NCBI GenBank assembly: GCA_021787985.1
Contig: JAJYLG010000021.1
Coordinates: 1 to 43,262, forward strand
Length of the DNA: 43,262 bases
Source of the DNA: Chloroflexota bacterium
Lineage (GTDB): Bacteria > Chloroflexota > Dehalococcoidia > DSGV01
Direction: 5' to 3'
Both the position numbers and the translations under genes were made by a program. The notes under the pieces were generated by a model, which did not search any database, was not told where the DNA came from, and saw nothing but the letters and a program-made list of their open reading frames with translations. Below are positions 240-37,050 of the stretch, piece by piece; position 1 is the first letter of the stretch; every line of letters starts with the position of its first letter.

Positions 240-560
240 TCCTCGTCTCGGACCAACGGCGGCGCGGGCGCGGCCTGCCCCCGCGGAGGCGGGGTCCCGA
301 GACGCGCGGTCGCCAGTGCCCCGTCCTGAGGGATGCGGCTCGATGCTCCGGAACGGGCGGCACGACCGGTGACAGACTTATCACCAAGGTGACAGTTTCG
401 TCACCGCTCCCTTGTTCGCTCTTCGCGGGATTCTAACCGGAACATCCCCTTGCCGCCATTGAAGTGTCACCGGCCGACGGCCCAGCATGGCGCTACGGAG
501 GCGGGGAGCGCGCGCCCCGCGGAGAGACTTGATGGCCGCATCGGCCAGGGAGGCGCGAAC
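240..560. other. Intergenic region between tandem surface-protein genes
   Basis: About 320 bases without a convincing gene; ORFs here are Arg/Ala-rich shadows. The region contains two tandem dyads at 368-405, described separately, and the Shine-Dalgarno sequence GGGAGG at 548-553 for the gene starting at 561. I found no well-spaced -35/-10 pair. Confidence 0.6.
368..405. promoter_or_regulatory. Two tandem 18-bp dyads, candidate operator
   Basis: GGTGACAGACTTATCACC (368-385) and GGTGACAGTTTCGTCACC (388-405) are each imperfect palindromes with GGTGA..TCACC ends. They repeat with a 20-bp period, about two helical turns. This arrangement suggests cooperative binding of a dimeric regulator upstream of the secreted-protein gene at 561. 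The regulator is unknown, and a structural role in the leader RNA is also possible. Confidence 0.5.
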
Positions 561-1634
561 GTGACCGGTCGCCGCTGGCGGCACGCACTGACGGCGGCCG
601 CGCTCGTGCTCACGGCGGCGTGGCTCGGCGCGGCGGTCCTCAGCGCGCGCGCGCCTTCTGTGTCCGCGGACCCTTCCGGCGCCGTGCTGGATATCACCAA
701 GCGGGCGAGCCCCGTCTACATCAGCAACGGTGACTCGGTGACGTTCACCATCGTCGTGTCCAACACGGGCGATGCGGACGCCGGCGGCCTGACCGTTTCC
801 GATGTTCTCCCCGATCCCCCGTTCGCGGTCACGAGCTCGGATGACAACGGGAGCGCGCCGGGCGGCAGCTCCTGGTGCGGGCCGTCGGGCAGCGGCCTGT
901 GGTTCTGCGTCAGGACCTTCGACCTGCCCGCCGGTCAGTCCCGCGAGTTGACCGTGACAGTGACGGTCACGGAGAGCCCGGGCACGCCGGGATGCAGCGA
1001 CCCGTTCAACACGGCGTCCCTGGGCGGGCCGCCGGACAACACGTACAACTTCCTGCACAGCTACGCGACGGCCAACCTGTGGGTGGACTGTGCGACCCCG
1101 ACCCCAACGCCGACCCCAACGCCGACCCCGACCCCCACGGAGACGCCCACCGCAACGCCGACCGCCACGCCGACGGAGACGCCGACCGCCACGCCCACGG
1201 GCACGCCCACGCTCACGCCGACGCCCACGGAGACTCCGACCGCAACGCCGACCTCCACGCCGACGGGCGGCCAGGGCTGCACGCCGGGCTACTGGAAGAA
1301 CCACACGGACCACTGGCCATCGGCTTCCGCGCCCGCCACGCCGCTCGGCAACGTCTTCACCATCTCATCGCAACTCTCGACGCTGGGCAGCTTCACGCTG
1401 CTGCAGGCGCTGAGCTTCAAGGGCGGGAACACGCTGCAAGGCGCTGCCCAGACCCTGCTGCGGGCTGCCGCGGCCGCCGTGCTGAACTCAGAGGCCCTGG
1501 CGTACCCGCTCGCGACGTGGCAGGTCATCGACCAGGTCAACGCCGCGCTGGGGAGCCTCGACCGAGGCACGATCCTTGCCCTGGCGTCGACCCTCAACGG
1601 CTACAACAACCTGCCATGCCCGTTCGGCAGGTGA
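561..1634 (+). CDS. Secreted protein with DUF11-like domain, Thr-Pro linker and PGYWKNH domain
   Basis: A 357-residue exported protein of unknown function, probably attached to or released at the cell surface. The start is GTG 561, chosen for GGGAGG seven bases upstream; an in-frame ATG at 450 has no such site. Residues 1-36 form a signal peptide (RRWRH, then an Ala/Leu core). Residues about 40-165 resemble the DUF11/CARDB-like repeat domain ([30 protein letters not shown]). Residues about 179-235 are a Thr-Pro linker with Glu, Ala and Ser insertions. The C-terminal 120 residues begin [15 protein letters not shown], a domain found in many bacterial exported proteins, and end [11 protein letters not shown]. 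The C-terminus matches the preceding partial gene, so this is the second copy of a tandem pair. It converges on hemB across a shared hairpin. Confidence 0.85.
1092..1266 (+). repeat. Low-complexity Thr-Pro codon repeat
   Basis: About 175 bases of ACG/ACC-CCG/CCC codons, interspersed with GAG, GCC and TCC codons, encode the Thr-Pro linker. Period-6 and period-12 direct repeats make the stretch prone to length change. It is an in-gene linker, not a CRISPR array. Confidence 0.85.
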
Positions 1635-15980: not shown

Positions 15981-16055
15981 GGCCCGGTAGCTCAGCGGTA
16001 GAGCAGCGGACTTTTAATCCGTCGGCCGTGGGTTCGAATCCCACCCGGGCTACCA
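15981..16055 (+). tRNA. tRNA-Lys (anticodon UUU)
   Basis: A 75-base cloverleaf. The acceptor GGCCCGG pairs with CCGGGCT (one G-U closing pair), the D stem is GCTC/GAGC, the anticodon stem GCGGA/TCCGT carries loop CTTTTAA with anticodon TTT, and the T arm is GTGGG TTCGAAT CCCAC. The discriminator is A, and CCA is encoded at 16053-16055. No copy of its 3' end suggesting an integration site was noticed elsewhere in the window. Confidence 0.97.
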
Positions 16056-16304: not shown

Positions 16305-17621
16305 GTGAACGATGGAGCACCGCCCAGCGCGCGTCGGGAGCAGGCCCCCGGCATGGTATCGGCTGCCGAGCGGGAGCCTTTCCTCGTGATGGCGAAGCCG
16401 GTCGGCCCGATCTGTAACCTCGCCTGCACCTACTGCTACTACCTGGACACGGCCCGGCTCTACGAGCGACCGCACCGGTTCCGGATGAGCGACGAGCTCC
16501 TCGATGCCTACGTTCGGCAGTACATCGAGGCCAGTCCCGGGCCGCTTGTCCACTTCGTCTGGCACGGCGGGGAGCCCACGCTCGCCGGCCTTGGTTTCTT
16601 CCGCCGCGCCGTCGGGCTGCAGCGCCGCTACCTCCCCCAGGGGTGGTCGTGCTGGAACAACCTGCAGACCAACGGCACGCTGCTCGACGAGCAGTGGTGC
16701 GCGTTCCTGGCCGAGGAGCGTTTCGAGGTGGGCCTGAGCGTCGATGGCACGGAGCTGCTCCACGACGCCTATCGCCGAGACCGGAACGGCCGGGGCACCT
16801 ACCAGCGGGTCGCCGCGGCCACGCAGCGGCTGCAGCGGCACGGCGTTCGGCCCGACCTGCTCTGCACGGTGACGCCCGCGGTGGCTCAGGACCCGCTCGG
16901 CGTCTATCGGGCGCTGCGGGCGCTCGGTGGCACGTTCCTCCAGTTCCTGCCCATCGTGCGGCGCGGCCCGGACGGCCAGCCAACCCCCGAGTCCGTCTCT
17001 CCCGACGACTACGGGCGCTTTCTCTGCGCTGTGTTCGACGAGTGGGTGCGGCACGACCTCGGGAAGCTGCAGGTGCAGCTCTTCTTCGAGAGCCTGCGCG
17101 CCTGGGGCGGGGAGACCCCGACGCTCTGCGTCATGGCCCCGACCTGCGGACGCGCGCTCGTGGTCGAGCACGATGGCGCTGTCTACACCTGTGACCATTA
17201 CGTGAACCCTGAGCACCGCCTTGGCGACATCCAGAGCACCCACTTGGGCGCGCTCGCCGATGCGCCCGCCCTGCTTCGGTTCGGAGCGGACAAGCGCGAC
17301 CGTTTGCCCGCTCAGTGCCGGGAGTGTCCTTGGCTGGCCGCGTGTAACGGCGGCTGTCCGAAGGACCGCTTCGCACGAGCGGCGGATGGAGAGCCGGGGC
17401 TGCATTACCTGTGCGCGGGTCTGCGGCGCTTCTTCGCCCACGCGGACGCCCCCTTGCGCCGCCTCGTGGAGCTGGGTCGTCAGAACGCGAGCCCGGCCGC
17501 GGCCATGGCCGCCCTGCGGGAGGAGTCGGCCGCCCCCTGGCGCGCCGTGGGGCGCAATGACCTCTGCCCGTGCGGCAGCGGCCGCAAGGCCAAGCGCTGC
17601 TGCTGGCCCCAGCGGCCGTGA
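16305..17621 (+). CDS. Anaerobic sulfatase-maturase-type radical SAM/SPASM protein with SEC-C tail
   Basis: A 438-residue cytoplasmic radical SAM enzyme. The SAM-binding cluster cysteines are C37, C41 and C44 (GPICNLACTYCYY). VWHGGEPTLAG, NNLQTNGTLL and VGLSVDGTELLHD follow, as in enzymes that oxidize an active-site Cys or Ser of sulfatases to formylglycine. A SPASM domain supplies cysteines for auxiliary clusters (APTCGRALV, YTCDHYV, CRECPWLAACNGGCPKDRF). The last 20 residues are a SEC-C zinc motif (GRNDLCPCGSGRKAKRCCW). GTG 16305 and ATG 16353 are both possible starts. No sulfatase gene is in the window, so its substrate must be elsewhere. Confidence 0.88.
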   Translation: MNDGAPPSARREQAPGMVSAAEREPFLVMAKPVGPICNLACTYCYYLDTARLYERPHRFRMSDELLDAYVRQYIEASPGPLVHFVWHGGEPTLAGLGFFRRAVGLQRRYLPQGWSCWNNLQTNGTLLDEQWCAFLAEERFEVGLSVDGTELLHDAYRRDRNGRGTYQRVAAATQRLQRHGVRPDLLCTVTPAVAQDPLGVYRALRALGGTFLQFLPIVRRGPDGQPTPESVSPDDYGRFLCAVFDEWVRHDLGKLQVQLFFESLRAWGGETPTLCVMAPTCGRALVVEHDGAVYTCDHYVNPEHRLGDIQSTHLGALADAPALLRFGADKRDRLPAQCRECPWLAACNGGCPKDRFARAADGEPGLHYLCAGLRRFFAHADAPLRRLVELGRQNASPAAAMAALREESAAPWRAVGRNDLCPCGSGRKAKRCCWPQRP

Positions 17622-34924: not shown

Positions 34925-36508
34925 ATGTTCCGTCACGTCCACGCCGTCCTCCACTACACCCGACCGGCCCTCATGGGGGCGGGCCTGGGGCTGATCGTCG
35001 TCGCCGCCATGGCCGGGGGGTTCGCGCTCACGCGCGGCGCTGGCCACCAACCCGCCGCCGCTTCCTCGCCGCGACTGACCGCGGCAGCCTCCCCGGCCGC
35101 TGCCGCCGCGAACGTCGCCACCTGGCGAGGACACGGCACCGCCCCGAACCAGACGTCGGACCCGGACCTCCGCTCACCATCGCCCAGCCCGTTCGCCGGC
35201 GTCCAGGTCGTGGCCACGCCCACGCCGACGGCCACTCCGACCGATGGCGCATGGGTGCCGTCCTGCAGCCCGGTCGGCGGCTCCGTCACGCTGGGTAGCG
35301 TCGTCACCTGCACCGGGCCAAGCGCGGGCGTAACGTGGGGGCCGGTCTGGTCGTCCGACGACGGCTTCCTCAACCAGGGCGCCATGGCTGGCACATGGAC
35401 CTTCCTGGCGCAGTGGCCGACCTTCGCCTCAGCAGACGCACGCATCTCCGTGACCTGGATCGACGGCGCCGGCTATCACGAGCAGACCTTCCTCTACGGC
35501 ATCGTCGGCACGCTCGCCTTCGCGGACTGTCGGCCCTACGCCGTCGAGCTGTCGCCAGGCACGCAGGTGCGGTGCACCTTCACCCCCGGCACCGCGAGCA
35601 CCTTCGGCGGCTGGACGGCGACCGGGCTCGACACGACCTCCGCTGCCGCGAACAGCGCGACTTTCGTGGCGGCGAAGCCGGGCTTCGTTACGATCACCGC
35701 GCGCTGGCGCGAGCCGGGCAGGCCGCAATCGCTCAGCTTCTCGTACGTGGTTCGCCCGGCGGACGGCCAATGGTACACGACCGACCGCGCCGGCTACGTG
35801 CTCGATGGCCGCTCGTCCGGTGGTCAGTTCACCCAGATCGGGGCGACGTGGACCGTCCCGTCGGTGCGGATGCCGCCCGGTGCTGACCAGCGGTACGGGG
35901 CGGTGGCGCAGCAGTCGATCGGCATCGACGGCCACGCCGGCCAGGCGGGGATCCGGCTCGCCACCATCGAGACGGTGGACGATTACGGCACGCACCTCTC
36001 CGCCTGGTACACGCTGCTGCCCTCCGAAGCGGTCGCGGTGCCCCTCGTGATCTCGGCGGGAGACACCATCACCGCCTCGCTCCGGGCAACCAAGCTCGGG
36101 GTGCCGACGCAAACGTGGCTGCTCGAGATGGTTGACGGGACGACCGGCCAGCGCTGGAGCGCGACCGTCCAGTACGGCGCCTCGCTCGACCTCGCCTCTT
36201 GGCTCGTGAAGGCTTCCGGCACCCCGTTCTGGATATCGTCGCTCGCAGACTTCGGCCAGACGACGTTCCGCGGCCTCACGGCCAACGGCGCGCCGCCGTC
36301 CCTCGCGCGGGACAGTGCCGCCGTGATGATGGACCCGAACGGTCAGGTTGCCGCGCCGTCCGTGCCCGGCCCAGCCGGCAGCGCGTTCAACGTCTGCTTC
36401 GGGACGGAGCTGCCGCCCTCCTCGTGCGCACCGCCATCGAGCTTGACGCCGCGGCCCACGCCGACGCCGACAGCCACCCCCACGGCAGCCGGAGCGGGGC
36501 GGCCGTGA
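34925..36508 (+). CDS. Secreted protein with C-terminal eqolisin (peptidase G1)-like domain, probably inactive
   Basis: A 527-residue exported protein. Residues about 15-37 form a signal anchor (PALMGAGLGLIVVAAMAGG). Residues 40-110 are Ala/Ser/Pro/Thr-rich. Residues about 110-275 are beta-rich, with two cysteine-containing segments. Residues about 298-475 follow the peptidase G1/A4 pattern: GQFTQIGATWTVPSV, SIGIDGHAGQAGIRLAT, SAWYTLLPSEAVAVPLVISA and LDLASWLVKASG. The catalytic Gln and Glu of scytalidoglutamic peptidase would fall at A346 and S425, so both appear replaced. The C-terminus is a Thr-Pro tail. ATG 34925 has GGAGGG six bases upstream. The stop overlaps the next gene. The role may be binding rather than proteolysis. 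Confidence 0.75.
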   Translation: MFRHVHAVLHYTRPALMGAGLGLIVVAAMAGGFALTRGAGHQPAAASSPRLTAAASPAAAAANVATWRGHGTAPNQTSDPDLRSPSPSPFAGVQVVATPTPTATPTDGAWVPSCSPVGGSVTLGSVVTCTGPSAGVTWGPVWSSDDGFLNQGAMAGTWTFLAQWPTFASADARISVTWIDGAGYHEQTFLYGIVGTLAFADCRPYAVELSPGTQVRCTFTPGTASTFGGWTATGLDTTSAAANSATFVAAKPGFVTITARWREPGRPQSLSFSYVVRPADGQWYTTDRAGYVLDGRSSGGQFTQIGATWTVPSVRMPPGADQRYGAVAQQSIGIDGHAGQAGIRLATIETVDDYGTHLSAWYTLLPSEAVAVPLVISAGDTITASLRATKLGVPTQTWLLEMVDGTTGQRWSATVQYGASLDLASWLVKASGTPFWISSLADFGQTTFRGLTANGAPPSLARDSAAVMMDPNGQVAAPSVPGPAGSAFNVCFGTELPPSSCAPPSSLTPRPTPTPTATPTAAGAGRP

Positions 36509-37050
36509 GCGCGACTCTGCACGCGGCCTCCTTCCTGCTCCGTGCGCCGTGGTGGGCGCCGGTGGCCGGCCTGCTCGGGCTGGGCGCTCTGGCGCTCCTG
36601 GCCGCCCTACGGGCGACGAGAGTCGACGGCCAGAGAGACCCTTCTTCGTTGGCGCCGGCCTCGGCGGCCGAGACGCTGCCGGCGGAGGCCCAGCCGACCG
36701 GCTCCGGCTCGTTCGCGCGCCCCATGTTCCGTTTCGACCCGCGGACTACCTGGCTGATGGCCTGGTCCGCCGCCGTGCTGCTGTCCGTCCTGGCGGTGAT
36801 CGACGCCGGCGCCCTCACGCTCTCGCTCGCCTCGGCGCTCTTCGCTGGATTCGGCGCCGGCGTGGAGCTGACGCTGACGGTGGAACGCCACCAGCGTCAT
36901 CCGGCGACCGGGACGCCGGCCTCGCCAGCGATGGTCGGAGCGCCGCTGGAGCCGGCGGCCCTGCAGCGTTGCCCCGCGGAACGACTCGTCCCACCGCCCG
37001 AGACCGCGACCCGGCGGGTCGGGCGGCCCGCTCACCCACGGCTCCGCTGA
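36505..37050 (+). CDS. Membrane protein of unknown function
   Basis: A 181-residue protein beginning at GTG 36505, which overlaps the upstream stop as GTGA. It has a hydrophobic segment at about residues 15-37 (WWAPVAGLLGLGALALLAAL), a Pro/Ala/Ser stretch, two more hydrophobic segments at about 80-120 (TWLMAWSAAVLLSVLAVI and LASALFAGFGAGVEL), and a basic, proline-rich C-terminus. No family is recognised. Coupling to the eqolisin-like secreted protein suggests that they work together at the cell surface. Confidence 0.7.
   Translation: MSATLHAASFLLRAPWWAPVAGLLGLGALALLAALRATRVDGQRDPSSLAPASAAETLPAEAQPTGSGSFARPMFRFDPRTTWLMAWSAAVLLSVLAVIDAGALTLSLASALFAGFGAGVELTLTVERHQRHPATGTPASPAMVGAPLEPAALQRCPAERLVPPPETATRRVGRPAHPRLR

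Follow-up and report, generated by a model that had tools for sequence, protein, structure and literature searches.

The window analysed here, a stretch of 43,262 nucleotides on a contig of a Chloroflexota bacterium, encodes a protein (the A4 protein) that holds neither of the eqolisin catalytic residues nor the supporting Glu69, the corresponding columns being occupied by R344, S425 and T363. We lean towards the view that it is a catalytically dead pseudo-peptidase displayed at the cell surface, whose cleft binds a ligand without cutting it. That the G1 fold was kept while the dyad and Glu69 were lost, and that this loss occurred from an enzyme-like ancestor, is well supported; a binding role is plausible. 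The features of the locus are collected in Table 1.

Table 1 Features of the A4 locus, in positions of the window
Feature	Position	Strand	Evidence
A4 protein, 527 aa, exported or membrane-anchored, Ig-like plus catalytically degenerate G1 (Peptidase_A4) domain	34925..36508	+	ORF; PF01828 E 1e-22
N-terminal hydrophobic segment (residues ~14-36) and Ala/Pro-rich linker of the A4 protein	34925..35110	+	Hydropathy; sequence
Two probable Ig-like domains of the A4 protein (residues ~105-193 and ~195-276)	35237..35755	+	Weak Pfam match; C178 module; all-beta model
G1/eqolisin-fold domain without catalytic dyad	35771..36412	+	Alignments; model pLDDT 91.5; Foldseek 2ifw
Arg344 codon, catalytic Gln53 column	35954..35956	+	Homologue alignments; scytalidopepsin B profile alignment
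Thr363 codon, conserved Glu69 column	36011..36013	+	Homologue alignments
Ser425 codon, catalytic Glu136 column	36197..36199	+	Homologue alignments
Pro/Thr-rich C-terminal tail of the A4 protein	36440..36505	+	Sequence
P0001, 181-aa orphan membrane protein with 2-3 hydrophobic helices	36505..37050	+	Hydropathy; no Pfam or NCBIfam family

The A4 gene is an intact open frame with a GC3 of 0.89. An assembly or sequencing error behind the changes described below was ruled out, given an uninterrupted frame and the joint alteration of several independent motif positions. No promoter signals, terminator signals or RNA families were found at the locus. Judged from its sequence, the N-terminal hydrophobic segment may be either a signal peptide or an uncleaved signal anchor, and the linker that follows it is rich in Ala, Pro and Thr.

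Upstream of the A4 domain there are probably two Ig-like domains, a call that we hold with moderate confidence. Both have a Cys-Cys spacing close to the domain start. When this region of ~170 aa was compared with Pfam, Flg_new_2 was the one match (E 4e-4; 20.8 bits, below the cut-off of 23.6). The module shares 35% identity with a module on another contig of the same genome (C178), where a surface protein (L035:3-1697, minus strand) that is cut by the contig end carries a TIG domain and repeated He_PIG domains, which are Ig-like. The AlphaFold model of the region is all-beta and of low confidence, so no claim is based on the full-length model.

The C-terminal domain matched Peptidase_A4 (PF01828) over residues 288-466 (E 1e-22; 81 bits against a cut-off of 22.3). 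Modelled by AlphaFold with 66 homologues aligned, it reached a mean pLDDT of 91.5 and a pTM of 0.88, and a Foldseek search with this model returned scytalidoglutamic peptidase 2ifw as the top PDB match (E 6.7e-12, TM 0.70/0.78), followed by aspergilloglutamic peptidase. The modelled fold fits 2ifw, 2ifr and 1y43 and is predicted to be a two-sheet antiparallel beta-sandwich of the scytalidoglutamic peptidase (SGP) kind. A preliminary description of this DNA, made from the letters alone, had recognised a G1 peptidase pattern here, and profile, model and structural search all bear it out. G1 peptidases are the only solved structures related by sequence to the domain. Weak Foldseek matches were to alginate lyases and glucanases, and the G1 fold has been described as similar to that of concanavalin A-like carbohydrate-binding proteins (PMC6154417).

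With scytalidoglutamic and aspergilloglutamic peptidases (MEROPS G1; PDB 2ifw, 1y43), the A4 protein has in common the beta-sandwich, the Trp67-x-x-x-x-Pro and Gly-Asp motifs and the Peptidase_A4 domain; it differs from them in the replacements Gln53->Arg, Glu136->Ser and Glu69->Thr, in its Ig-like fusion, and in that no acid-activated propeptide was recognised. Neprosin and bacterial fold relatives (PDB 7zvc, 4hfs, 8xai) share the same broad beta-sandwich at Foldseek E-values from 1e-7 to 1e-4. Neprosin uses a Glu188/Glu297 dyad, whereas the dyad columns of the A4 protein contain no acidic residue, and the identity is about 11%.

The active-site assignment was read from two sets of aligned homologues. 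One comprised 22 sequences, taken from the host genome and from further genomes of the same phylum; the other, of 66, covered Actinomycetota, Bacillota, Chloroflexota and others. Both place Arg344, Thr363 and Ser425 at the Gln53, Glu69 and Glu136 columns, and the register was set by an alignment to the scytalidopepsin B profile, in which Leu52-Gln53-Thr54-Gly55 corresponds to Ile343-Arg344-Leu345-Ala346. The preliminary description had already put Ser425 at the catalytic Glu position, in agreement with both alignments; its choice of Ala346 for the catalytic Gln has to be replaced by Arg344, Ala346 being the neighbouring conserved Gly55 column. The changes extend to the cleft motifs, where the Trp6, Trp39 and Glu140 columns are Arg288, Ser331 and Lys429, and the acidic residue of the Asp57 column is gone (Ile348, by alignment position). 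The Trp67 and Asp43 columns are retained.

Gln53 and Glu136 (Gln107 and Glu190 of the precursor) form the catalytic dyad in all active G1 members, as established with mutants and structures (PMC3009609), and the strictly conserved Glu69 helps to position Gln53 (PMC6154417). The Gln107Glu exchange in SCP-B abolished activity (PMC9343461). Given these published mutants and the replacement of the dyad and Glu69, hydrolysis by the G1 mechanism is very unlikely for the A4 protein. Among G1 homologues without one or both dyad residues, it is one in which both are gone.

The same columns were then read in 162 distinct homologous domains; most come from Chloroflexota, some from Actinomycetota and Bacillota. 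Gln, Glu69 and Glu136 were all present in 141 of them; the rest included a set that keeps Gln and has Asp at the Glu136 column, and a few with Glu69 alone changed. The A4 protein alone has a residue other than Gln at Gln53 or other than Glu or Asp at Glu136, a few gapped rows not being counted. Of 40 near-invariant columns it retains 26, against 37 or more (at least 92%) in each of the other rows of the 66-sequence set. All 14 altered positions fall within five stretches (residues 287-289, 331, 342-346, 354-363 and 423-431), where the dyad and the conserved motifs next to it are located. At the remaining near-invariant positions of the domain nothing has changed (12/12); the probability of this under random placement is ~0.002, for a grouping that was chosen post hoc. 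Because the contig scan demanded an AEW-x-x-E-x-P-like motif, its set overstates how conserved columns 423-431 are; nearly all loci found without this requirement retain the motif.

Searches of the GTDB species genomes, of the host's own order (represented by this genome only) and of viral contigs returned no full-length orthologue of the A4 protein, and a plasmid search with the A4 domain only gave none either, so that it is one sequence of its kind among the collections searched. Secreted bacterial proteins with a Peptidase_A4 domain also include PepG1 of Alicyclobacillus and other bacterial G1 peptidases. The bacterial G1 homologues tested can be aligned to the A4 protein over the full domain length, with identities of roughly 21-38%; they retain Gln and Glu (or Asp), whereas in the A4 protein both are gone. 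Non-peptidase G1 homologues are recorded in MEROPS, six of them in Ascomycota (PMC3009609). Those are fungal, while the A4 protein comes from Chloroflexota and has further changes in its active-site motifs and an Ig-like stalk.

In a FastTree phylogeny of 153 domains, the A4 protein clustered with 11 dyad-bearing homologues (95% local support), which come mostly from actinomycetotal metagenome bins and also from Bacillota and others. It resembles this group in motifs such as DPNGQ and the C-terminal FNxC region. As it nests with intact enzymes, the catalytic loss is well supported, by sequence comparison, as a derived state, and an enzyme of that clade was probably the source of the gene, whether by acquisition or by divergence. 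Its end branch measures 1.11 against a median of 0.25, and its exact sister is unsure since long branches can be misplaced.

The genome contains exactly one other A4 protein (C152:39300-39875; L001:1453-2514, minus strand), which keeps Gln and Glu69, has Asp at the Glu136 column and falls in a distant clade of the tree. It belongs to a Chloroflexota subgroup with Gln53 kept, Asp at Glu136 and the motif A-D-[FI]-I-V-E-D-P (L001, L159, L163, L170, L171, L175, L180, L181, L189 and L191; five of these form a supported clade). Going by their sequences, these domains could be glutamic peptidases with a Gln/Asp dyad, or inactive. An N-terminal domain of ~110 aa is also present in many Chloroflexota A4 peptidases, as at L017:1480-2763 (minus strand), L013, L018, L025, L031 and L034; it has weak matches to NTF2-like families (TcaA_5th, SnoaL_4) and is perhaps a propeptide or a binding module.

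Downstream, the GTG start of P0001 at 36505 overlaps the TGA stop of the A4 gene at 36506-36508, confirming the GTGA junction noted before, and the product is indeed a membrane protein: a hydrophobic 181-aa ORF, with hydrophobic windows around residues 16-34 and 82-122, that belongs to no family in Pfam or NCBIfam and has no recognisable signalling domain. Its codon-position GC (0.76/0.64/0.87) is coding-like. Searches for relatives returned chance-level matches in 400 genomes of the phylum (E of 0.001 or higher) and nothing significant elsewhere in its own genome, and no P0001-like ORF lies downstream of the other A4 genes among 80 A4 loci. The preliminary description had suggested looking for the pair in other genomes; it does not recur in these 400 genomes or 80 loci. 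With neither relatives of P0001 nor a second instance of the pair, the claim of a functional pair is unsupported.

Under the pseudo-peptidase reading, the A4 protein would be exported via its N-terminal signal or anchor helix, and the linker and two Ig-like domains would hold the A4 domain away from the cell. The C-terminal end would then present an eqolisin-fold beta-sandwich whose cleft no longer hydrolyses peptides; remodelled by Gln53->Arg, Trp6->Arg, Glu140->Lys, Glu69->Thr and Glu136->Ser, this cleft may instead have become a binding site, with an anionic polymer or a peptide as possible ligand, and the domain might function at the surface as an adhesin or a lectin-like module. Such a role is plausible in view of the retained fold core, the fused Ig-like stalk and the export or anchoring of the protein. 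P0001 might, speculatively, be co-translated with the A4 protein and help to anchor it. Through the active-site motif changes, three acids (Glu69, Glu136, Glu140) are lost and three bases (Arg288, Arg344, Lys429) gained, and an anionic ligand would therefore suit; by homology to SGP positions, the three bases would face the cleft. The net charge of the whole domain, -4 against a family median of -8, is a mild and not extreme shift, and it was dropped as a strong sign of a basic cleft. The fully specified version, in which a positively charged groove on an Ig-like stalk acts together with P0001 as a lectin-like surface receptor for anionic polymers, strikes us as a long shot.

The main rival to a surface pseudo-peptidase is a decaying gene that has lost catalysis without taking on a new role and whose ORF is still uninterrupted. 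We judge decay to be unlikely: a singleton on a long branch, lacking an orthologue in any collection searched, is what it would predict, but the 527-aa ORF has stayed open and has a GC3 of 0.89, AlphaFold still predicts the domain at a pLDDT of 91.5, and the structural near-invariants outside the motif stretches are all kept (12/12, ~0.002 with the groups set post hoc). Inactive homologues often act as decoys or regulators in peptidase families, and the A4 protein could in the same way compete for substrate with another peptidase or cap it. The single other A4 protein of the genome, C152, which retains Gln and Glu69 and has Asp at Glu136, is one candidate target; yet the two proteins belong to distant clades and lie on different contigs, which makes this quite improbable.

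The preliminary description had taken the A4 protein and P0001 for a binding or signalling pair derived from a peptidase. Descent from a peptidase with loss of catalysis stands, the dyad and Glu69 being gone as a derived change; the pairing with P0001 finds no support. A two-component surface sensor of this kind has a slim chance of being correct, for its case consists of the four-base GTGA overlap and the coding-like ORF, whereas four-base overlaps are common in compact operons, P0001 has neither relatives nor a recognisable signalling domain, and the pair has no second instance. That the A4 protein still cleaves peptides through non-canonical residues is scarcely credible. Its fold is retained, as are the Trp67 and Asp43 columns, and neprosin, of related fold, works with a Glu/Glu dyad (PMC9343461), but Glu, Gln and Asp are all absent from both dyad columns of the A4 protein, Glu69 and the acid of the Asp57 column are gone as well, and cross-mutation of the dyad, as in Gln107Glu and Glu188Gln, abolishes activity (PMC9343461).

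Inactive G1 relatives were already known, and the addition made here is a modest one: an example from a bacterium that is fused to Ig-like domains and altered further in its active-site motifs, limited in scope because it is a single instance. If the pseudo-peptidase reading is right, a bacterial glutamic peptidase has lost its whole catalytic apparatus, kept its fold and gained Ig-like display, and the eqolisin fold, similar to that of carbohydrate-binding lectins, has been reused for binding. A 'peptidase A4' annotation based on Pfam only would then be wrong for this protein.

Elsewhere in the window, positions 450-1634 (plus strand) encode an exported protein of 394 aa, likely located at the cell surface, in which a DUF11 domain is combined with a long linker of (Thr-Pro)n repeats. 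A radical SAM/SPASM-like protein at 16305-17621 (plus strand) resembles, by eye, an anaerobic sulfatase-maturating enzyme, and its C-terminal end shows, again by eye, a SEC-C-like motif (CPCGSGRKAKRCC). The sole Rfam match within the window is a tRNA gene at 15981-16052 (plus strand).
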